Shown here one piece after another: positions 9,245 through 21,638 of a stretch of DNA of 64,000 nt. A program made the translations under genes and the position numbers. The notes under the pieces were generated by a model. The model saw nothing but the letters and a program-made list of their open reading frames with translations, was not told where the DNA came from and did no database searches. How positions within the stretch are numbered: position 1 is the first letter of the stretch; the number at the start of each line of letters is the position of its first letter. Origin of the DNA: Candidatus Bathyarchaeia archaeon (lineage in GTDB: Archaea; Thermoproteota; Bathyarchaeia; Bathyarchaeales; Bathycorpusculaceae); assembly GCA_041447175.1 (NCBI GenBank), contig CP166960.1:2496519-2560518 (forward strand). The letters run 5' to 3'.

Positions 9245-9551
9245 GCAAACAAAAACCCCCCACCCCAAGTGCCTGCGTAGCCGCCCTCGTGCACTGGTGC
9301 TACGGCGGTTTACATCGCTGGTACTACGCATGTTCCTACTGTTATTGAATGTCCAAAACCGTCGTCTTTCTCAAGGAAAACCGCTACAATAATGCTTTCC
9401 ATGTTTTTTATGCAGCATTTTTCCATTAAGTTTTAATTTCAAACTGGTGCACTTTTCAAGCAATGCTTTTATATATCGCACGACGCTAAAGCCATTGTTT
9501 CCCAGATAAGGGAAGAGTATAAACAAGAATGGTTATCGAGAAGGTTGTATA
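9245..9551 (+). other. Intergenic region before Sec-hdrA with long hairpin
   Basis: This stretch holds no gene except a seven-codon mini-ORF at its end. A compound hairpin spans 9274-9330: TGCGTAG (9274-9280) pairs with CTACGCA (9324-9330), CCGCC (9281-9285) with GGCGG (9304-9308), and the tip GCA/TGC (9291-9293, 9298-9300). It lies between the polyferredoxin stop and the next promoter, so it would be in the polyferredoxin 3' untranslated region. Its role is unknown: terminator, stability element or regulatory RNA. Confidence 0.5.
9453..9478 (+). promoter_or_regulatory. Promoter of the Sec-containing hdrA
   Basis: TTTTCAAGCAATGC is followed by TTTTATATATCGC, a strong TATA box about 80 bases before the hdrA start at 9552. 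The upstream half is nearly the same as at 8193-8218. ACTGGTGCAC lies just before it (9444-9453). Confidence 0.6.
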
Positions 9552-9552
9552 A
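9529..9552 (+). CDS. Mini upstream ORF overlapping the Sec-hdrA start
   Basis: ATG GTT ATC GAG AAG GTT GTA TAA encodes MVIEKVV. Its TAA stop overlaps the hdrA ATG by one base. The Cys paralogue has a similar mini-ORF (12309-12329, MVFEVV) with the same overlap and exactly one codon fewer. It may couple translation, or it may simply be a leftover of the gene duplication in which GAGAAGG/GAGGT acts as the ribosome-binding site. Confidence 0.3.
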
Positions 9553-12071
9553 TGAGCAATCCAGAAACACAAAAACCATCTGAAGCCTCCAAACTTGCGG
9601 AAACCCCGCGTGTGGGAGTCTTCGTCTGCCACTGCGGTTTAAACATCGCTGGAACGGTAGACGTTAAACAGGTAGTTGAATACGCTAAAACAATACCTGA
9701 CGTTGTCCTCGTAAAAGAGAGCCGATACACCTGCGCTGACCCCGGACAAGAAGAAATCAGAAAATCCATAAAAGAACACAACTTGAACCGCGTGGTTGTT
9801 GCCGCTTGCAGCCCAAGGATGCATGAGCCGACATTTCGGAAAACCGTAAGTGAAGCAGGGTTAAACCCCTTTGTGTTCGAAATGGCGAACATACGTGAGT
9901 TCGCTTCGTGGTGCCATCCTAATACTCCCGAAGAAGCCACAGCAAAAGCAAAAGATACGGTGCGAATGGCTGTGGCAAAAGCGCGGTTACTTAAGCCTCT
10001 CGCAACCATGGAGGTTCCTGTAACTAAAAACGCCTTGGTTATCGGCGGAGGCATCGCCGGCATCAACTCCGCTTTAGATTTGGCAAATATGGGTTTCAAA
10101 GTTTACCTTGTCGAGAAGAACTCAAGCATAGGAGGTCACATGGCTCAACTCGACAAGACTTTCCCAACTCTGGATTGCAGCATATGAATTGAAGGCCCTA
10201 GGATGGTCGAGGTATTACGCCATCCTAAGGTCGAAGTAATCTCAAACGCTGACGTCCTCAGCGTAGAAGGTTTCGTAGGCAACTTCAGAGTTAAAGTTCG
10301 CAAGAATCCACGATACGTCATTGAAGACAGATGCACCGGCTGCGGAGAATGCAAAGACGTCTGCCCAATCGAGTACCCCAACGAGTGGGACCTCAACTTA
10401 GGTGTCAGAAAAGCCATTTCCATTCCGTTTGACCAAGCAGTGCCTCTTGTCTACTCGATAAACAAGGATTACTGCATCGAGTGCTTCAAATGTATAGATG
10501 CCTGCGGTACACGCCGAGCCATTAACTTTGACCAAGAACCCGAAGAAATCGACTTGGACATTGGGGCAATCATTGTAACAACTGGTTGCGATATTTATCA
10601 GCCTGTGGAGGACGCTAGGTACGGCTATGGAAGATACGATAACGTACTTACAGCTTTAGAGTTTGAGCGCCTCATCACCGCTGGCGGTCCAACAACTGGT
10701 CACGTAGTCCGCACATCTGATGGGAAAAGACCCAAAAGCGTTGCCCTCATTCAATGCGTTGGTTCAAGGGACGTAAACAAGTTCGAGTACTGTTCTGGTT
10801 TCTGCTGCATGTATGGGCTAAAAGAAGCCATCCTCCTGAAAGAACACTACCATGATGACGTGGACGTCTACATTTTCTACATGGACATACGCACTCCCTC
10901 CAAAGGCTACGAAGAATTTTACCGAAAGGCTCGCGAAATGGGCATCACTTTCATCAGAGGAAAGCCGTCCCAAATACTGGAAGACCCCAAGACCAAAAAC
11001 TTGGTTATACGCGCAGAAGACACAGAGCTGGGACAACCCATCGAAGTCGAAACGGAAATGGTCGTGCTTAGCACTGCAGCCATACCTAGCAAGGGCGCTG
11101 GAGAGTTGGCTAACATCCTTCACATAACGCGAGGACCCGACGGCTTCTTCATGGAGAGCCACCCCAAACTCAAACCAATGGATACACCCATGGACGGCGT
11201 GTTCCTAGCGGGTGCCTGCCAAGGGCCAAAGGACATACCTTACAGCGTAGCGCAAGGAAGCGGCGCGGCAGCAAGAGCGGCAACAATCCTTTCTCAACCG
11301 AAATGGATGATTGAACCGATTGTCGCGATAGTTGACCCCGCCAAATGCAGAAACGTGAAAGCAAAATGTGGAGTTTGCGTTAAAAGCTGTCCCTTTGGAG
11401 CCATAACTGCAGCTGAAGGGCAAGCAGCCCAAGTTAACGCTGCCCAGTGCCATGGATGCGGAACATGCGTTGCAGACTGCCCACAAGACGCCATAACCCA
11501 GATGCACTTCACAGACGAACAGATCTTCTCCCAAATCCGAGCGGCTCTAGAAAAAGACCCTGGGGAGAAGATACTAACGTTTATGTGTAATTGGTGAGGC
11601 TACGCCGGCGCGGACCGAGCGGGGACGAGCCGGCTTGAATACCCTCCAACGACACGAGCCATAAGGGTGATGTGTACTGGACGAGTAGATCGGGACTTCG
11701 TTATTGAAGCATTTAGGCTGGGCGCTGGAGGAGTGCTGATTACCGCCTGCCATCTTCCCAGTGACTGCCACTACATCTCTGGAAACGCAAAGATGAAAGT
11801 GCGTATGGATGCCTTGGCTGGTATGCTTCAGAAGCTTGGATTGAGTCCCGAAAGACTCAGGGTTGATTACGTGTCGTCAGCTGAAGGAGAAAAATTCGTC
11901 AATATCGTGAAGGAAATGACTGACCAACTGAAGACGATAGGAAAAGAGAAGATATTAGCAGAGAACGCAAAGCTTTATCCAACCTTGGATAACATGCTGA
12001 AACGCAAAGCTGCAGCAAAACCTTCAGCTTCAGAAGCCAAAGCAACTGCCGACGCAAAAACAACCAAATAA
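9552..12071 (+). CDS. hdrA: HdrA-MvhD fusion selenoprotein with two in-frame TGA (Sec) codons
   Basis: Read through two TGA codons (10185-10187, residue 212; 11595-11597, residue 682), this is an 839-residue protein collinear with the 817-residue paralogue next door. Both TGA codons sit where the paralogue has Cys212 and Cys679. Order: HdrA N-domain ([15 protein letters not shown]); FAD site ([18 protein letters not shown]) ending TLDCSI-U-IEGP; ferredoxin motifs ([45 protein letters not shown]); MvhD-like domain FMCNW-U-GYAG. HdrA subunits bifurcate electrons at FAD, and MvhD links them to a hydrogenase or other donor. HdrA and MvhD/VhuD are established archaeal selenoprotein families. The cluster motif [11 protein letters not shown] is expanded by four residues compared with CKKCGIC in the paralogue. 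Each TGA has a strong hairpin just downstream. Confidence 0.93.
10197..10230 (+). promoter_or_regulatory. Hairpin 9 nt after the first Sec TGA (candidate local SECIS-like element)
   Basis: AGGATGG (10200-10206) pairs perfectly with CCATCCT (10220-10226). CG (10208-10209) pairs with CG (10218-10219) inside, and CCT (10197-10199) with AGG (10228-10230) outside a bulged A. This gives about 12 base pairs with an 8-base loop. It starts nine bases after TGA 10185-10187, inside the coding sequence. I see only a short GGTG/CACC pairing at the same place in the Cys paralogue. A role in Sec insertion is inferred. Confidence 0.55.
11598..11637 (+). promoter_or_regulatory. GC-rich hairpin directly after the second Sec TGA (candidate local SECIS-like element)
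   Basis: GCCGGC (11604-11609) pairs with GCCGGC (11629-11634). Inside it, CG/CG (11611-11612, 11626-11627) and CC/GG (11615-11616, 11623-11624) extend the helix around G.A mismatches and an asymmetric GA/A bulge, with a GAGCGG loop. The 40 bases after the TGA are 80% G+C by count. The encoded residues differ from the paralogue ([11 protein letters not shown] against ADLAGISRCEY), as expected if RNA structure constrains the codons. A role in UGA recoding is inferred. Confidence 0.55.
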
Positions 12072-12328
12072 CAACCCTTTCATTTTTGTTTTTTTGCATT
12101 TTTGTTGTTAGTGCTATTGTGCACCAGTAAGATTCGTGTTTTTTGAAGAATGTTAGCGTAAAAAACTGAACAGGTGACTGAATTTTTTTTCCGTGAGAAT
12201 TGTTGGTTGCTGCAAGTAATGTTTATATTTCCATCAAAAAAGCTAATATGTCTAATTAAAAAAACTGATGCCGCTGCCGCCCAAGAACGGGACAGGGTTG
12301 AAAGAAGAATGGTCTTTGAGGTTGTATA
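12072..12328 (+). other. Intergenic region between the two hdrA genes
   Basis: A T-rich tract (12082-12108) is a plausible archaeal terminator for the Sec hdrA. A weak stem pairs CACCAGT (12122-12128) with ACT (12165-12167) and GGTG (12173-12176), leaving a GAACA bulge; it does not clearly match the published archaeal SECIS core. The element GCAAGTAATGTTTATATTTCC (12212-12232) is the TATA promoter of the next gene. A mini-ORF (12309-12329) overlaps the next start. Confidence 0.5.
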
Positions 12329-12329
12329 A
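12309..12329 (+). CDS. Mini upstream ORF overlapping the Cys-hdrA start
   Basis: ATG GTC TTT GAG GTT GTA TAA encodes MVFEVV and overlaps the hdrA ATG as TAATG. It parallels the mini-ORF at 9529-9552, differing by one whole codon. The function is unproven. Confidence 0.3.
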   Translation: MVFEVV

Positions 12330-14782
12330 TGAGCAATCCACAAACACAGAAACCAAACGAAGGCGATAAACAACTCGAACCTTTACGGATTGGAGTTTTT
12401 GTTTGCCACTGCGGTTTAAACATCGCTGGAACCGTAGACATTAAGCAAGTAGTTGAATACGCCAAGACCATCCCCGATGTGGTCTTCGTTAAAGAAAACC
12501 GATACACCTGCGCTGACCCCGGACAAGAAGAAATCAGAAAAGCCATCAGAGAACAGAAACTCAACCGAGTAGTCATCGCAGCGTGCTCTCCAAGAATGCA
12601 TGAACCCACTTTTAGACGTACCGTCAACGAAGCAGGTCTAAACCCCTTCTATTACGAGATGGCTAACATTCGAGAGTTCGCTTCATGGTGCCACCAAAAC
12701 ACACCACAGGAAGCAACGGAGCGGGCAAAAGACACCGTTCGTATGGCAGTTGCAAAAGCACGCTTTTTGATGCCGCTTCAAACAATAGAAGTTCCCGTAA
12801 CCAAAAAGGCACTTGTCATCGGCGGAGGCATTGCAGGTATGAACGCCGCCTTAGACCTTGCAGAAATGGACTTCAAAGTGTATATGCTTGAGAACACCCA
12901 AAGCATCGGCGGGCACATGGCGGCTTTAGACAAAACCTTCCCAACCCTTGACTGCAGCATCTGCATTGAAGGACCAAAAATGGTGGATTGCGTCAGGCAC
13001 CCTAACATCACGATTTTCGCTTATTCCGACTTGGTTAAAGTTGACGGTTACATAGGTAACTTTAAAGTGAAACTTCGTAAGAGAGCCCGATACATTCTTG
13101 ATGACCGCTGCACGGGATGTGGACAATGCAAAGACGTCTGCCCAATCGAGTACCCCAACGAGTGGGACCTGAACCTTGGCACCCGAAAAGCAATTTCAGT
13201 TCCCCTTGACCAAGCAGTGCCCCTAATTTACGCCATCAACAAGGATTACTGCGTGGAATGCTTCAAATGTGTAGACGCTTGTGGACCACGAGAGGCTATA
13301 GATTTCACTCAAAAGGATGAAGAAGTAGAAATCGATGTAGGCGCAATCATAGTCTCCACCGGCTTTGACGTTTATGAACCATACGACATGCCCCTCTTAG
13401 GCTACGGGAAATACCCCAACGTCATCACCTCCATGGAGTTTGAACGACTCATCCTTGCTGCGGGACCCACTGGTGGCAAAGTCATCAGGCAATCTGACGG
13501 ACAAAAACCCCACAAAATCGCCTTCATCCAATGCGTAGGCAGCCGAGACAAAAACAAGTATCCCTACTGCAGCAACTTCTGCTGCATGTACACGCTTAAG
13601 CATGTTGTACAGTTAAAGGAGAAGTACAAAGAAGACATAGAAGTCTACGTCTTCTACATGGACATTCGAAGCCCAAGCAAAGGCTACGAAGAGTTCTATG
13701 ACCGCGCAAGAGACCGCGGCGTGAACTTTATCCGTGGGCGCGTCAGCCGAATCGATGAAGACCCAAAAACCCACAACATGGTCATTCACTCTGAAGATTC
13801 TAACCTTGGGGCACCTATCGAAGTGGAAGCTGACATAGTGGTCTTAGCAACTGCCGCTATCCCCAAGAAAGGCTCAGCGGACATTGCACGCATAATTAAC
13901 CTGTCCCGAGGCGCGGACGGCTTCTTCATGGAGAGCCACCCCAAACTCAAACCCATGGATGCACCCACTGACGGGGTCTTCTACGCGGGCGCCTGCCAAG
14001 GCTTAAAAGATATTCCCTCAAGCGTCTCCCAAGGAAGCGGCGCAGCAGCCCGCGCAGCAACCGTGCTCTCCAAATCCAAATGGAAGATTGAACCCATCAT
14101 CTCCGTTGTCGACGAAACTAAGTGCAAGAAATGCGGCATCTGCGTTGACAAATGCCCCTATGGCGCCATCAAAATCGAAAAAGGCAAGACCCCCGCTCGA
14201 ATCATCACCGCCAGCTGCCACGGATGCGGAACCTGCGTTGCAGAATGTCCCCAGCACGCAATTACTCAAATGCACTTTACCGACGCCCAAATTTTGGCTC
14301 AAGTTCGGGCTGCGCTTGAAGAAAAACCTGAAGAAAAAATCATGGCTTTTCTGTGCAACTGGTGCAGTTATGCAGGTGCAGATTTGGCTGGCATCAGCCG
14401 ATGTGAGTACCCTGCAAGCGTAAGAGTTGTTCGTGTCATGTGCTCTGGAAGAGTTGACAAAAACTTCATCCTGGAAGCGCTCAGGTTGGGGGCGGGTATG
14501 GTGCTGGTTGGTGCTTGCCACTTACCCTACGACTGCCACTACATAAGCGGCAACTATAAGATGAAAGCACGAACCGACGCACTCAAAACAATGCTAATCA
14601 AGCTAGGCATGACTCCAGAACGGTTCCGGGTAGAATACGTTTCAGCCGCCGAAGGAATACGCTACGCCGAAGTCATCAAGGAAATAGACACCGACATGAA
14701 GACGCTGGGTAAAGAGAAAATTCTGGCAGAAACTGAGAAGCTGCGACCAACCCTGGAAAAAATGCTCAAACGCAACCCCTAA
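12329..14782 (+). CDS. hdrA: HdrA-MvhD fusion protein, cysteine form
   Basis: The product is 817 aa and clearly paralogous to the preceding gene along its whole length, including the shared start MSNP-TQKP. It has the N-domain ([15 protein letters not shown]), the FAD dinucleotide fold ([18 protein letters not shown]), TLDCSICIEGP with Cys212, ferredoxin motifs CTGCGQCKDVCP, CVECFKCVDACG, CKKCGICVDKCP and [12 protein letters not shown], and the MvhD domain FLCNWCSYAGADLAG with Cys679. It is expected to form the flavin-bifurcating core of a heterodisulfide-reductase-like complex. HdrB/C are not in the window, so its electron acceptor is unknown. It may substitute for the Sec form when selenium is scarce, as Cys/Sec isoenzyme pairs do in Methanococcus; that is inference. 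TATA box at 12221-12229. Confidence 0.93.
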   Translation: MSNPQTQKPNEGDKQLEPLRIGVFVCHCGLNIAGTVDIKQVVEYAKTIPDVVFVKENRYTCADPGQEEIRKAIREQKLNRVVIAACSPRMHEPTFRRTVNEAGLNPFYYEMANIREFASWCHQNTPQEATERAKDTVRMAVAKARFLMPLQTIEVPVTKKALVIGGGIAGMNAALDLAEMDFKVYMLENTQSIGGHMAALDKTFPTLDCSICIEGPKMVDCVRHPNITIFAYSDLVKVDGYIGNFKVKLRKRARYILDDRCTGCGQCKDVCPIEYPNEWDLNLGTRKAISVPLDQAVPLIYAINKDYCVECFKCVDACGPREAIDFTQKDEEVEIDVGAIIVSTGFDVYEPYDMPLLGYGKYPNVITSMEFERLILAAGPTGGKVIRQSDGQKPHKIAFIQCVGSRDKNKYPYCSNFCCMYTLKHVVQLKEKYKEDIEVYVFYMDIRSPSKGYEEFYDRARDRGVNFIRGRVSRIDEDPKTHNMVIHSEDSNLGAPIEVEADIVVLATAAIPKKGSADIARIINLSRGADGFFMESHPKLKPMDAPTDGVFYAGACQGLKDIPSSVSQGSGAAARAATVLSKSKWKIEPIISVVDETKCKKCGICVDKCPYGAIKIEKGKTPARIITASCHGCGTCVAECPQHAITQMHFTDAQILAQVRAALEEKPEEKIMAFLCNWCSYAGADLAGISRCEYPASVRVVRVMCSGRVDKNFILEALRLGAGMVLVGACHLPYDCHYISGNYKMKARTDALKTMLIKLGMTPERFRVEYVSAAEGIRYAEVIKEIDTDMKTLGKEKILAETEKLRPTLEKMLKRNP

Positions 14783-14830
14783 GCCCCAGTGGGACTTCAA
14801 CTAAACCTGTGAACCAGCAGCGACAAAGAA

Positions 14831-14854
14831 ACAAGCTTTTTTCTTGAGGCTTGT
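14831..14854 (+). terminator. Possible terminator hairpin after Cys-hdrA
   Basis: ACAAGC (14831-14836) pairs with GCTTGT (14849-14854) around a loop that contains a run of six T. It is placed 50 bases after the hdrA stop and before the tRNA-Sec promoter. Archaeal termination mostly depends on T-runs, so this is tentative. Confidence 0.3.
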
Positions 14855-14943
14855 GGTAAGGCAGTTCCGAGTGATTTAGGGTTAACTCTGTTTCTGTGCT
14901 GCTTCTGGTTTGGCTCATGAGGCGATTTCTATATTCATAAAAC

Positions 14944-14956
14944 AAATTATATATCT
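14944..14956 (+). promoter_or_regulatory. TATA box of tRNA-Sec
   Basis: AAATTATATATCTC lies with its centre about 30 bases upstream of the tRNA 5' end at 14982. This is the expected spacing for an archaeal TBP/TFB promoter. Confidence 0.6.
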
Positions 14957-14981
14957 CCCAACACGAGAGCAATCAATGTAT

Positions 14982-15072
14982 GGCGTCCTACAGCAAGGTG
15001 GTCCTGGCACCGGACTTCAAATCCGGGGAGTCCGATAAGGACTCGGGGTTCAATTCCCCTTGGACGCCGCCA
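14982..15072 (+). tRNA. selC: tRNA-Sec (anticodon TCA)
   Basis: A cloverleaf folds by hand. The acceptor GGCGTCC pairs with GGACGCC (15062-15068); two further pairs, one mismatched, would give the nine-pair acceptor typical of tRNA-Sec. The D stem is long (GCAAGG/CCTGGC with one mismatch) around a four-base loop. The anticodon stem is CCGGA/TCCGG with loop CTTCAAA, giving anticodon TCA at 15017-15019. The variable arm has a perfect six-pair stem GAGTCC/GGACTC. The T stem has four pairs (GGGG/CCCC) with loop TTCAATT. Discriminator G and CCA are encoded. The 9/4 fold, long D stem, big variable arm and UCA anticodon together identify tRNA-Sec. It ends exactly where the convergent SepSecS stop codon begins. 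Confidence 0.97.
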
Positions 15073-16386
15073 CTACGCTACTGTCCTCAAAACAGTGTCT
15101 AACCTCTCAGTTGCCCACCTGATTTCTTTCTTTTGTATTCCTATGCTGGCGTCAAAGTTGATGTACGATGAGACATACTGGGGGCAGCACACTCCAAAAT
15201 CAGTTTTTTCTAACGCTCTTGCCCCACAGACCCTTGCCGTGTACAAGGCTTTACCTATTTTTTTGGCGTTTCTTTCCTCCAGTGTCATAGCCACGGAAAT
15301 GGGGTTGTAAGTATCCAGTATTCTTTGTGAATGCTTCTCTGCAACCTCCTTTAAGGATGATTCAAGAAACTTTCGGTTTTCCTCTTGCTGGTTTCTTAGC
15401 TCCTCGTAGCCTCCTACGCCTATCGAAAGTATCGCCGCAAGGAACTGCACTATGGGCGCCGCTGTTGCCCTCCCTGCATACGCTTCAGACACGTTGTTGA
15501 GGAATTCTTCGTTGGGTGAAGCAACTATTGCTCCTCCGACTGGGGTGAGAAAATTCTTGTCGGTGCTCTGGATTATTGCGTCCACGCGTCCTGCGTCGAC
15601 AGCCCCTCTTACGAGCTTCATGATTTCGCGGCTCTGTACCCCAAAAGAGTTGTTGATGATGTGCGGTACATTTTTTTCCTGTGCGATTCTTGCGATGTCT
15701 TTGATTTTGTCGGGTTCTCTGGGCTGGAAGAATGTGGTTGTTGACAGAATCGCGGCGGTGTTTTCATTGACTGCTTTTTCAATTTCCTCCGCGGGAACGT
15801 TCACTGCGTCTCCGTAGACTTGGCCTTCAATTATTTTTTCTTGCAGACCTGCAAGCTGAATCGCCTTCAACGGTGTTTTGTGGTCAAGCTGTGGGTAAAC
15901 AACCTCTTTTCCTTTGGTGAGGTTTCTTGCGGCGCACAAGGCAAGCGCAAGCGTCATTCCCGTTGCCATAGGAAACACCACTGCCTTCTTGATGTTGGGA
16001 ACTCCGAACCTTTTCATGGCGTCATTTGCCAATTTGTTGGCGAAGAAGTACATAAGCGACCCGCCTGCTGCCTTGGGTTGGGCTTTGGTTAGGTCACCTG
16101 AACGTCCTACTCCATGGTGAAATCCCGCTGCCAGCTTTGAAACCGCTGGAGAGGCAACCCTGCCCTCTCTTTCGCCTACCCACGCTGCTTTACTGTCCTT
16201 GTCCAAATCCATTGTCGACAGCAAATCCAGCAATGTTTCAATTTGGCGGTCTTTCCAGCCTTCTTGGGGTACTCTTCTTTGCTCAAAAAGCAGTTTTATC
16301 GGTCGGGACTCGGTGCCTAACACTGTCAGGCCTCTATCCAGTATGTTTTTGGGGATTGTATCATTTAATTTATCAAGGGGTAACAT
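15073..16386 (-). CDS. spcS: O-phosphoseryl-tRNA(Sec):selenocysteinyl-tRNA synthase (SepSecS)
   Basis: The product is 437 aa, the usual archaeal length. This PLP enzyme converts Sep-tRNA-Sec plus selenophosphate to Sec-tRNA-Sec. The signature STDKNFLTPVGGA carries the PLP lysine (Lys277). The phosphate-loop elements GEREGRV (residues 71-77) and GRSGDLTKAQPKAAGGS (94-110) match those that bind the phosphoseryl group in characterised SepSecS. It is therefore not the related tRNA-Cys enzyme SepCysS. The stop codon TAG (15073-15075) abuts the encoded CCA of tRNA-Sec. The gene diverges from the PSTK-SelB gene. Confidence 0.96.
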   Translation of the reverse strand: MLPLDKLNDTIPKNILDRGLTVLGTESRPIKLLFEQRRVPQEGWKDRQIETLLDLLSTMDLDKDSKAAWVGEREGRVASPAVSKLAAGFHHGVGRSGDLTKAQPKAAGGSLMYFFANKLANDAMKRFGVPNIKKAVVFPMATGMTLALALCAARNLTKGKEVVYPQLDHKTPLKAIQLAGLQEKIIEGQVYGDAVNVPAEEIEKAVNENTAAILSTTTFFQPREPDKIKDIARIAQEKNVPHIINNSFGVQSREIMKLVRGAVDAGRVDAIIQSTDKNFLTPVGGAIVASPNEEFLNNVSEAYAGRATAAPIVQFLAAILSIGVGGYEELRNQQEENRKFLESSLKEVAEKHSQRILDTYNPISVAMTLEERNAKKIGKALYTARVCGARALEKTDFGVCCPQYVSSYINFDASIGIQKKEIRWATERLDTVLRTVA

Positions 16387-16731
16387 GAACTGTGCCTCTA
16401 GTGTTCTGGGGCTTCTTGGCTGCTGCCCGTCTGCAAGTTTTGAGTGCTGCCCTTAACGTGTTACGATATTGATTTCATGCCTGCGAACTTATGAGCGGTC
16501 TTGATTTGTTTGTTGTCTTCAGTGCTTAACTGCTTAGCTGTTCTTTTATTGCTTTGTATGCGTGTTTGTTTCTTTTGATAGGCAGATTGTTGCGGTAACC
16601 TGTTATTATGGAATCAGTCAAAGTTTTCGGAAATATATATAGCCTATTAGAATAACTAAACGGCTGAACTCAAAGTCTGATGTTTGACAGACAGAATTAT
16701 AAACCGAAGACAGTAAAGACAACAGGGGAAC
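16387..16731. other. Divergent promoter region between SepSecS and PSTK-SelB
   Basis: This 345-base region has no gene. Reading right, AAATATATATAG (16631-16642) is a TATA box that would give a leader of about 65 bases. AATTATAAAC (16695-16704) is closer and could drive a nearly leaderless transcript. A GGGGAA stretch precedes the ATG at 16732. The promoter for SepSecS must lie in the left part, but I see no single convincing box. Confidence 0.5.
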
Positions 16732-18930
16732 ATGGTGTCGCAGAATTATCCTTATCTACTTATACTATGCGGGTTGCCTGCTTCAGGAAAAACCACCATC
16801 AGCAAAACCGTTGCCTCCGTGCTTGAGGACAAGCATGGCGTATCCACCATGGTGGTTAGCTCTGACGATTTTCGAGACATGCTCTCGTATTCCTCCAACG
16901 GGTTCAAACCTGAGCGAGAAACATCAGTGAAGACTCTTTATGAGAAGGCAATTGCAACTGGTCTAGAGCAGGGTTTTCTGGTCATCAGTGACGACCTAAA
17001 CTACTACAAGTCCATGAGAAGCGACCTACGGCATATTGCTAAACGGTTAGACTCTGACTATGACCTAATCTTTGTTGACACCCCCGTTGAACAAGCCCTT
17101 AAATGGAACCAAAACCGCGAATCGCCCCTCCCGCAAGCTCTTATTGAGGAACTTAATCAGAAACTTGACCCACCAAAGGGCGATTACAAATGGGACACCC
17201 CCCTTGTAACGGTTGACCCCAGTAAACAAAGCTCCGAAGAAATCGCCAACCTCATTGTAGCCGCGGTTCTCAAAAGGCTGGAAAATCCCAAACGGTCCAA
17301 GCCCAAAAAGATGGTGGAAAACGAGAAGGCACTAAGAGCCCGAGGTATCGAAAGGGAAACCCGCAAGTCCATGATGGAGGTTATGACGCGGTACAAGAAT
17401 CCGGACTTGGGCATTTCGCTTTCAAAAATAAGAAAAGCTGTGGTTAAGAAGGCGCTGGCAGACGGCTCCAAACCCTTGGACGCGGTTGAATTATTCCTCA
17501 GAGAAGCCAACGCGGTCGCTAAAAGCTACAGCTTGGCTGAGGGTGCGGGTCTTATTCCCGTGCATGTCGGTCTCTTTGGGCATGTTGACCACGGCAAGAC
17601 CATGATAGCAAAACAGCTAACTGAAAAGCCTTCGACGGCTTCGCTGGACAAGGCACCCGACTCCGTCAGGCGAGGAATGACCCTAGACATGGGTTTCTCC
17701 GCTTTCACCTTGGGTCAGTATTTGGTTACTCTGGTCGATTTGCCGGGGCACTTCAGTTTGGTTAGACATGCGGTGGCGGGTGCCAACATAATTGACGCTG
17801 CAGTGCTAATTGTCGCCGCTGATCTTGGTCTTCAGGTTCAGAGTGTGGAGCATTTCTCGATAATTAAAAACCTTGGAATAAAGGATCTTGTGGTCGCGTT
17901 AAACAAGGTTGATTTGGCTTCTCCCCAGAGAATTGCTGAAGTCAAAAACAAAATTATGCTTCTCCTGAACGGAACTCCCTATGAGCAGGCAAAGATTGTG
18001 GAGGTCTCAGGCTTAACGGGCAAAGGAATTGACGAACTTAAAAACACCCTGCAGGATTCGCTTAGTCCACCTATTCGTCAATGGAATGGTCCGTTTAAGA
18101 TGCCCATAGACCACGCCTTCACCATAGCCGGCGTGGGAACTGTCTTAACTGGCACGATCCACCGTGGGAAAGTGAAAGTGAAAGACCTTGTTGAAATAAA
18201 ACCTGTCGACAAGAAAGGTCAAGTGCGTTCGCTGCGGTCCTTTGGCGAAGATAAGGAGGAGGCTATAGCTGGAGACAGGGTGGGGGTCGCGGTCAAAGAC
18301 ATAAAACCTGATGACGCTCACAGGGGTTACATCGCTGTTTCTCCTGGCTCCATCACTTCCACTTGCCGTGTAATAGCCGAATTGGAAGTAGACAAATACT
18401 ACCGACGTTCGTTGACGCCGTATAGTTATGTGGACGTGTTTGTGGGCTCTTATGAAGTGCTGGGGAATGTTGTGCCCGGCGTCATCGAAGACGGTAGGTT
18501 TGTTGTGAAATCCTCGGTTACGGCTGCTGAAAAATGTATAGTTTACATTGAACTCAGACAGCAAGTCATGGCGGAAAGGGGTGACCATGTTCTTTTGATG
18601 AACCCTGGGCTCCAAGCCCGCGAATTCCGAATAATCGGAGGAGGAAGAATCACCGAAACAGACAGCAAATTAGATTTCTTCTCAAAAAAGACAAAAGAAG
18701 GCACGGTAAGCCAAAAAAGAGAAGCCAACGAGTACTCAGTGACTGGCTTCTTCAACTCATCGGAAGCTGCCTCAAAATTTGTGGGACAACAAGTTGTCAC
18801 TACATCCGGAATTAGAGGCGAAATCAGGGTTGCGCTGTCATCGGGCGAAGTCTTAGTCAAGTTCAAAGAGGCAGTGCCTGAAGGCGAAAAAGCATTTCTT
18901 TACGCCTACAAAAAGTTAAGAAGCAACTAG
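16732..18930 (+). CDS. pstK-selB: PSTK-SelB fusion: phosphoseryl-tRNA(Sec) kinase joined to Sec-specific elongation factor
   Basis: The product is 732 aa with two complete-looking parts. Residues 1-~265 resemble PSTK: P-loop GLPASGKTT (14-22), SSDDFRDML, then a basic helical region (~190-265) equivalent to the tRNA-binding C-domain. Residues ~275-732 are an archaeal-type SelB, close to the ~468-residue length of stand-alone SelB: GHVDHGKT (283-290), RRGMTLDMGFSAF switch I, DLPGH (336-340), NKVD (391-394), then beta-barrel domains and a short domain IV. PSTK phosphorylates Ser-tRNA-Sec; SelB brings Sec-tRNA to the ribosome at UGA. In studied archaea these are separate genes. The frame is uninterrupted with no stop or start between the parts. 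Confidence 0.94.
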   Translation: MVSQNYPYLLILCGLPASGKTTISKTVASVLEDKHGVSTMVVSSDDFRDMLSYSSNGFKPERETSVKTLYEKAIATGLEQGFLVISDDLNYYKSMRSDLRHIAKRLDSDYDLIFVDTPVEQALKWNQNRESPLPQALIEELNQKLDPPKGDYKWDTPLVTVDPSKQSSEEIANLIVAAVLKRLENPKRSKPKKMVENEKALRARGIERETRKSMMEVMTRYKNPDLGISLSKIRKAVVKKALADGSKPLDAVELFLREANAVAKSYSLAEGAGLIPVHVGLFGHVDHGKTMIAKQLTEKPSTASLDKAPDSVRRGMTLDMGFSAFTLGQYLVTLVDLPGHFSLVRHAVAGANIIDAAVLIVAADLGLQVQSVEHFSIIKNLGIKDLVVALNKVDLASPQRIAEVKNKIMLLLNGTPYEQAKIVEVSGLTGKGIDELKNTLQDSLSPPIRQWNGPFKMPIDHAFTIAGVGTVLTGTIHRGKVKVKDLVEIKPVDKKGQVRSLRSFGEDKEEAIAGDRVGVAVKDIKPDDAHRGYIAVSPGSITSTCRVIAELEVDKYYRRSLTPYSYVDVFVGSYEVLGNVVPGVIEDGRFVVKSSVTAAEKCIVYIELRQQVMAERGDHVLLMNPGLQAREFRIIGGGRITETDSKLDFFSKKTKEGTVSQKREANEYSVTGFFNSSEAASKFVGQQVVTTSGIRGEIRVALSSGEVLVKFKEAVPEGEKAFLYAYKKLRSN

Positions 18931-19733: not shown

Positions 19734-21638
19734 ATGGCAGGCTCCCTGCTTTACCACATGGCAATGGTCACCAAAATGGAGACCGAAACCAGCATCCTGC
19801 TCCAAGAACTCAAAGCGCCGCCACCAGAAGTGCAAAAGCAACTCATGCGATTCTACAAAGAATTCGCCTCCGACGCACAGACCCTATTGGAACCCACCAT
19901 CCCCCTGGGCATCGACGTCCAAAAAGCCGCGTCTAACCCCAGCTTAACCACTGACCAAAAAATCCGTCTCTTCATGAACCTGCAAAAGAAAACCCAAACC
20001 ACAGCTGCTATGCTCCGCAACAAAAACCCCCAAGCTTCCCAACCCCTCAACGAGCTCTTCCAAGATTGGTCGCGGCACGTGACGGAAATCCGCCTCATGC
20101 AGGAGTACCACACAATCAAAGGGCTGCTGACCTTAGCGGCGTTGACAAAACAGTTTGGCATTGAACGATTAAGTGCGGCTATGCAGCAGGTTCAGGCAGA
20201 GTTTGGCAAACAAACCGTCAACATCGCCCTTGAAGTCACCTTGAAGGTGGGCATGCGCCGCGAAAAGCTGCAGTCCATCATGCTCAGCGACCACTTCATC
20301 AACTACACCATGAATATGGGCACTTTAGATGGGAACATGCAGTTTCTTAACTGCCCCATCTACGGCGGACACAAACACCTCGGTGAACAACTCGGAATAC
20401 CCGACGAGGTTGCCTCGCTTTTCTGTAATCATTTCTGTTTTGCCCACGCCAAGGCCATGTTGGAAACCGTGATGCCCTTCACCTTTGATTTGACTCAGCC
20501 TGAACGCATGGCAACCCATGGCAAATGTGATTTTTACATGCGCTTGGGGCATTCTCCTGGCTCAAAGGTTCCCGACAAGCATATTCCCCTTGTTGTATCC
20601 TATAATGTGACCCGTAAATGCAACCTCAAATGCGGTCACTGCTACATCAACGCCACCACCGAGGAACTCAAAGGGCAACTAACAACCGAGGAATCCAAAC
20701 AGCTTATTGACCAAATTGCCGAAGTCAGCCGACCCCTCCTTATCTTAAGCGGCGGGGAACCTCTTCTCCGCGAAGACATCTATGAACTGATTCGTTACGG
20801 CACCCAGAAAGGGCTACGTATGGGGCTGGGAAGCAACGGCTGCCTAATCGACTCCACAGCAGCACGGAAACTCAAAGAAGCAGGTATAAAAACCGTATCA
20901 ATCAGCTTAGATTCACCCATCCCCCAGCAGCATGACGAGTTCCGTGGCGTAGCAGGGTCTTGGCAAAAAGCTGTAGACGCCATAAAACTGCTGCGGCAAA
21001 ACGATGTTTTGGTTCAAGTGAACACAACCCTCACGCAAGAGAACTATGACCAAATTGACGACATCATGACCCTCTCAGAACAAATCGGTGTAGAAAACTT
21101 CCATCTCTTCTTCTTGGTGCCGACTGGACGAGGCGCCAAAATCGCCGACATATCCCCCCAAATGTACGAAGACATGATAACCAACACCTTCGCCAAAACC
21201 TCCCGCCACAAACTCAACGTGCGACCCTCATGTGCACCTCAGTTCATGCGCATAGCCAAAGACATGAACCTTGACATGCGGCAGTGGATACGCGGCTGCA
21301 TCGCAGGCTTATACTACTGCCGAATCTATCCTAACGGCGACGTAACCCCCTGCCCCTATCTGCCCATCAAGTTGGGTAACATCCGAGAGACAACCTTCAA
21401 AGACATCTGGTTCAATTCCCCCCTCTTTAAGGCGCTACGCAACCCTGACTCGCTAAAAGGTAAATGCGGCGCCTGCGAATACAAAGTCATCTGCGGCGGA
21501 TGTCGAGCCCGCGCTTACGGATTATCCAGCGACTTCATTGATTACTGCGGGGACCTTCGTGAACCAACCGCGTTAAACGGTGACTACCTTGCAGAGGACC
21601 CTTGGTGCGTCTATCAACCCCCGAAAAAACCTAACTAA
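19734..21638 (+). CDS. Radical SAM/SPASM protein with N-terminal helical domain
   Basis: At least 634 aa. Residues 1-~285 are mostly helical, ending in a segment (FLNCPIYGGHKHLGEQL ... CNHFCFAHAKAML ... HGKCDFYMRLG) that resembles ATC-hydrolase/L-2-amino-thiazoline-type domains. Then comes a radical SAM domain with CNLKCGHCY binding the SAM [4Fe-4S] cluster and ILSGGEPLLREDI. The C-terminal SPASM region has CRIYPNGDVTPCPYLPIKLG and CGACEYKVICGGCRA for auxiliary clusters. Similar proteins modify peptides or take part in haem and cofactor synthesis (AhbD-like); the substrate here is unknown. The ATG at 19734 is the first in frame, but coding-like sequence extends ~180 bases upstream, so the start is doubtful. 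Confidence 0.85.
   Translation: MAGSLLYHMAMVTKMETETSILLQELKAPPPEVQKQLMRFYKEFASDAQTLLEPTIPLGIDVQKAASNPSLTTDQKIRLFMNLQKKTQTTAAMLRNKNPQASQPLNELFQDWSRHVTEIRLMQEYHTIKGLLTLAALTKQFGIERLSAAMQQVQAEFGKQTVNIALEVTLKVGMRREKLQSIMLSDHFINYTMNMGTLDGNMQFLNCPIYGGHKHLGEQLGIPDEVASLFCNHFCFAHAKAMLETVMPFTFDLTQPERMATHGKCDFYMRLGHSPGSKVPDKHIPLVVSYNVTRKCNLKCGHCYINATTEELKGQLTTEESKQLIDQIAEVSRPLLILSGGEPLLREDIYELIRYGTQKGLRMGLGSNGCLIDSTAARKLKEAGIKTVSISLDSPIPQQHDEFRGVAGSWQKAVDAIKLLRQNDVLVQVNTTLTQENYDQIDDIMTLSEQIGVENFHLFFLVPTGRGAKIADISPQMYEDMITNTFAKTSRHKLNVRPSCAPQFMRIAKDMNLDMRQWIRGCIAGLYYCRIYPNGDVTPCPYLPIKLGNIRETTFKDIWFNSPLFKALRNPDSLKGKCGACEYKVICGGCRARAYGLSSDFIDYCGDLREPTALNGDYLAEDPWCVYQPPKKPN

Follow-up and report, generated by a model that had tools for sequence, protein, structure and literature searches.

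The PSTK-aSelB fusion gene of a Bathyarchaeia archaeon without SepCysS probably encodes a bifunctional Sec protein kept for equal dosage and tRNA-Sec retention

The Sec pathway proceeds in an established order, from PSTK via SepSecS to SelB (PMC9499178). Mukai et al. (Front Genet 2022, section 3.4.1; PMC8762117) described a PSTK-aSelB fusion in diverse Bathyarchaeota as well as in one Archaeoglobus, and a review took it up again (PMC9499178). The fusion was proposed to shield Sep-tRNA-Sec from SepCysS, with its co-occurrence with SepRS-SepCysS systems lacking SepCysE as the rationale (PMC8762117). The PSTK-SelB architecture is thus already known, and the suggestion in the initial annotation of the gene studied here, that no such fusion had been described, fails. 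Beyond the published account, we add another Archaeoglobi genome with the fusion, a tree for each half and the neighbouring position of the two genes in Sifarchaeia as the likely precursor, and we tested the published explanation.

The gene is located in a window of 64,000 nucleotides, the whole stretch of DNA that was analysed, from a source genome consisting of one contig of 2.73 Mb. An ATG opens the frame of 732 codons, which contains no internal stops. The features discussed here are collected in Table 1.

Table 1. Features of the fusion gene and of the neighbouring Sec genes, in window positions
Feature	Position	Strand	Basis and remarks
PSTK-aSelB fusion gene	16732..18930	+	single ORF, 732 aa; carried by 9 class genomes (this one included) and 2 Archaeoglobi
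PSTK part: kinase domain (residues ~9-184) and three-helix C-domain (~198-263)	16756..17520	+	TIGR03574, 3adb alignment, AlphaFold2 helices
Linker, residues 264-274 (~11 residues)	17521..17553	+	AlphaFold2 secondary structure; junctions of 11 fused genes
Archaeal SelB part (residues 275-732): G domain, domains II and III, short domain IV	17554..18927	+	TIGR00475, PF00009, PF03144, PF21440, PF21131; Foldseek to 4ac9
HdrA-MvhD/FlpD fusion, in-frame TGA at each of two putative Sec sites (U212, U682)	9552..12071	+	Cys in tandem paralog
SepSecS	15073..16386	-	TIGR03531, 474 bits (cut-off 224.85)
tRNA-Sec (UCA), 9-bp acceptor stem, U:U at pair 8	14982..15068	+	Rfam RF01852, 69.7 bits; ARAGORN; sequence

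The initial annotation had read the gene as a PSTK-like kinase with a P-loop and a C-terminal domain that runs without a break into a complete archaeal SelB with G1, G3 and G4 motifs, and both parts of this reading stand. The N-terminal part matches the NCBIfam PSTK model TIGR03574 with 143.5 bits (E 7.6e-42, residues 9-241), under the cut-off of 290.5. Four of 20 Sec-coding genomes tried reach this cut-off, all of them of the Methanococcales type, and the others score 144-253 bits; judging from these scores, the equivalog cut-off depends on the lineage and leaves PSTK identity undecided. The top PDB match of the N-terminal part is the PSTK of Methanocaldococcus jannaschii (3adb, 92.8 bits, residues 6-241), with both PSTK domains covered, and the next family, PAPS synthetase, follows at 28 bits, more than 60 bits lower. 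The PSTK catalytic pair is present as the P-loop GLPASGKT (residues 14-21) and the DxxR motif D45xxR48, which aligns with the SDLIR segment of the M. jannaschii enzyme. Also present is the C-terminal helical tRNA-binding domain, into which the 3adb alignment extends up to residue 241 and whose helices span residues 198-263 in the structural model. The C-terminal part exceeds the cut-off of the SelB equivalog model TIGR00475 (273.8 bits against 242.25, residues 278-643), and the GTPase motifs G1 (GHVDHGKT), G3 (DLPGH) and G4 (NKVD) can be read in the sequence. Domain III of aSelB exceeds the cut-off of PF21440, and the eEFSec domain IV model PF21131 matches weakly (E 0.0007), under its cut-off. 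A second PSTK or SelB is absent from the one-contig source genome, in which the second-best TIGR03574 candidate reaches only 23 bits and the next matches of the protein P0001 score at most 102 bits with partial coverage of the GTPase half.

Structure prediction, proposed as a check at the outset, was run with AlphaFold2 from 32 related sequences and returned the kinase part, the C-domain helices (198-221, 224-244 and 248-263), the linker and SelB from residue 275 onwards (mean pLDDT 84.8). With a pTM of 0.63, this model does not fix the placing of the PSTK half relative to the SelB half. The top fold match found by Foldseek was Methanococcus maripaludis SelB (4ac9; TMt 0.78, 33% identity in the fold alignment).

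The fusion is carried by nine of the 257 genomes of the class, belonging to nine species and including the window copy. All class copies are uninterrupted, one of them ending at a contig end, and every class genome with a SelB of this type has it fused (9/9). Across 84,980 species genomes, the search added two Archaeoglobi (L057 and L058) for a total of 11 fused genes; methanogens and Asgard archaea had SelB in unfused form. No further carriers were detected in a phylum-wide sample of 398 genomes beyond the nine, or in 295 genomes of the phylum of Archaeoglobi beyond L057 and L058. For copies from the same genus, dN/dS lies at 0.05-0.12 across the whole gene and, in pairs with unsaturated dS, at about 0.06-0.09 near the junction; purifying selection acts across the PSTK-SelB junction. 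A read error that removed a stop between the domains, a possibility raised in the initial annotation, is ruled out together with assembly error and chance by the low dN/dS at the junction and by the same single frame in eight other genomes of the class, whose copies share 38-87% identity with that of the window.

In unrooted trees, one branch separates the 11 fused sequences from the rest, with support of 100/99 for SelB and 99/99 for PSTK, so that a single origin is to be read as one side of a branch and not as a proven clade. In the SelB tree, the Archaeoglobi are nested among the fused forms of Bathyarchaeia (93/91). In Sifarchaeia, PSTK is located directly upstream of SelB on the same strand as an adjacent, separate gene; the two lie in different frames in two genomes, and TGA and TAG stand between them in a third. 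These stops were considered as recoded codons; in the two genomes in which the genes are out of frame, read-through cannot join them. This tandem is the arrangement expected of a precursor and likely represents it as judged from gene order, although the trees do not single out Sifarchaeia as the nearest group. Three fused relatives have an ATG at precisely the position where SelB formerly started, and elsewhere the codon is ATA or missing. In two relatives (G192 and G156), an SD-like GGAG stands shortly upstream of that ATG, and some fused relatives may also make free SelB from the old start. Near the SelB start of the window copy, TTG-268 and GTG-277 are the only start codons, without a well-spaced Shine-Dalgarno sequence. 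The G domain starts at about residue 270-280 in all full-length fused copies. The tandem pair in Sifarchaeia, the relict ATG and the grouping of the fused forms together fit a single stop-loss fusion. The fusion would thus have arisen once, when the stop between two neighbouring genes was lost, and would have spread by descent and probably also by transfer between Bathyarchaeia and Archaeoglobi.

SPS over its cut-off and with an in-frame TGA is encoded in eight of the nine class carriers, and in none of three genomes of the same genus that lack the fusion. The remaining fused lineages have SPS, the fusion and SepSecS as neighbours, and SepSecS follows directly downstream of the fusion on the same strand, hence PSTK, SelB and SepSecS are likely co-expressed there. 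The U:U pair of the window tRNA-Sec fits the U6:U67 mismatch described for the tRNA-Sec of a wetland Bathyarchaeota lineage, the match in position being a reading of the numbering (PMC8762117). A second tRNA-Sec gene of the source genome (L131:8865-8951, corresponding to G000:C1:1577364-1577450) differs at 7 of 87 bases and adjoins genes for a Rieske protein and formylmethanofuran dehydrogenase-like proteins. It lies about 7 kb from an SPS gene that carries an in-frame TGA, both within a selenium-related cluster, with YedE-like and Se/S-carrier-like genes in between. Two tRNA-Sec genes were also observed in genome G130. In the source genome, GCCA comes directly after each of the two tRNA-Sec genes (15069-15072 in the window), and G73 together with CCA may be encoded for both, which would differ from what is usual in archaea. 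In fused relatives, tRNA-Sec is about 109-110 nt long with extra sequence in the T arm (L043:1501-1609 and G156:C16:18008-18117), which is probably an intron like the one reported for Lokiarchaeota.

Among other genes, a second, shorter CysRS-like gene (G000:C1:529572-530831; 305 bits, under the cut-off) was seen beside the full CysRS gene, as well as in G127, G129 and G130. A radical SAM/SPASM protein resembling AhbD/NirJ2 is encoded at 19734-21638 of the window, with no Pfam match to its N-terminal ~280 residues.

A candidate client of the Sec machinery is encoded upstream in the window. The HdrA-MvhD gene breaks into three ORFs under the standard code, and its tandem paralog (12329-14782) has Cys at both positions matching U212 and U682; the HdrA-MvhD/FlpD product is likely a selenoprotein on the basis of this comparison. 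A search with the Rfam SECIS families (window 9400-16800, E up to 1) yielded no match, despite the two predicted Sec codons. A stretch that is conserved in relatives downstream of the HdrA-MvhD gene was considered as a SECIS element and rejected, as it bears more resemblance to a promoter region of the gene that follows; its fold is no better than that of shuffled sequences. By eye, no shared motif was recognized in the 3' regions of SPS.

The most economical reading of these data would be a bifunctional protein that serves equal dosage and the local retention of tRNA-Sec. We consider it probable that this stop-loss fusion encodes such a bifunctional Sec protein and that it is kept for these benefits, and not for protection against SepCysS. 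Both halves would be active, with tethering or dosage as the benefit. The N-terminal half is predicted to carry out the first step as PSTK, phosphorylating Ser-tRNA-Sec, after which a separate SepSecS would produce Sec-tRNA-Sec; the C-terminal half would bind GTP and bring Sec-tRNA-Sec to UGA codons. The present benefit would likely lie in an equal dosage of two rare tRNA-Sec proteins and in holding tRNA-Sec near both sites.

A possible but rather improbable alternative is a channelling hub, in which PSTK and SelB in one chain are joined by a docking SepSecS and the tRNA is passed on without release, which would guard against misuse of Ser- and Sep-tRNA-Sec. The short linker with its near-constant spacing in all fused lineages favours it, as does the position of SepSecS right next to the fusion gene in other lineages. 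However, SepSecS acts between PSTK and SelB, which makes a direct hand-over in one step impossible and requires a third protein at this point, and unfused archaea manage without the fusion. That such a hub, with the SepSecS of the neighbouring gene, would keep tRNA-Sec bound throughout the Sec cycle independently of any SepCysS appears still less likely.

The loss of a stop between adjacent co-transcribed genes could also have been neutral, with no gain beyond co-expression. The tandem arrangement in Sifarchaeia and the in-frame ATG that some lineages retain where SelB once started would agree with such an event, which we nevertheless regard as comparably doubtful: one frame is maintained in all 11 carriers across two phyla, in spite of the sequence divergence, and the old start is gone in several.

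The published proposal is that the fusion hides Sep-tRNA-Sec from SepCysS, which would convert it to Cys-tRNA-Sec (PMC8762117). SepCysS is indeed encoded in both fused Archaeoglobi (504-511 bits), for which the proposal may still hold, and the fusion could date from an ancestor that had SepCysS. In the class, however, neither SepCysS nor SepRS exceeds its curated cut-off in any of the nine carriers, three of which are less than 80% complete, so that a few genes could be missed, and four at least 94% complete; those of the best matches that were inspected are SufS/NifS-type desulfurases and PheRS alpha, respectively. The SepCysS search found two positive controls, and 28 of the 257 class genomes are over the cut-off; none of the 28 carries the fusion, a lack of overlap that is not statistically surprising on its own, with about one expected by chance, but which shows that the fusion can be kept without SepCysS. 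CysRS is over its cut-off in seven of the nine class carriers, and 8 of 11 unfused Sec archaea tested tolerate SepCysS. Guarding against SepCysS therefore cannot be what maintains the fusion in the class, where it must be kept for another reason, and as a general explanation the proposal is quite unlikely. Weakest of all, a Kti12-like identity of the N-terminal half, suggested by a match to the Pfam KTI12 model (128.9 bits) and an instance of the alternative P-loop kinase that the initial annotation had envisaged, is hardly credible, since the best solved-structure match is a PSTK over both domains, with PAPS synthetase as the next family at 28 bits, and the source genome codes Sec yet offers no other PSTK candidate.

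The fusion may be compared with several known systems. The one reported in PMC8762117 likewise joins PSTK and aSelB, in this order, in a single ORF of a Sec-coding archaeon, but the role proposed there requires SepCysS, which the source genome and its fused class relatives lack. M. jannaschii PSTK (3adb, 3a4l) shares the kinase domain, helical C-domain, P-loop and DxxR motif, and M. maripaludis SelB (4ac9) and human eEFSec (5izk) are likewise four-domain Sec elongation factors with a short domain IV; unlike the fused halves, all of these proteins are free-standing. If the halves acted together with SepSecS as a hub, the assembly would be a selenium counterpart of the transsulfursome. In Sifarchaeia/Borrarchaeia, PSTK and SelB are adjacent in the same order and on the same strand, but as separate ORFs. 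The 11 fused genes and the tandem pairs of Sifarchaeia hence provide a natural series in which to ask whether PSTK, SepSecS and SelB form a complex.
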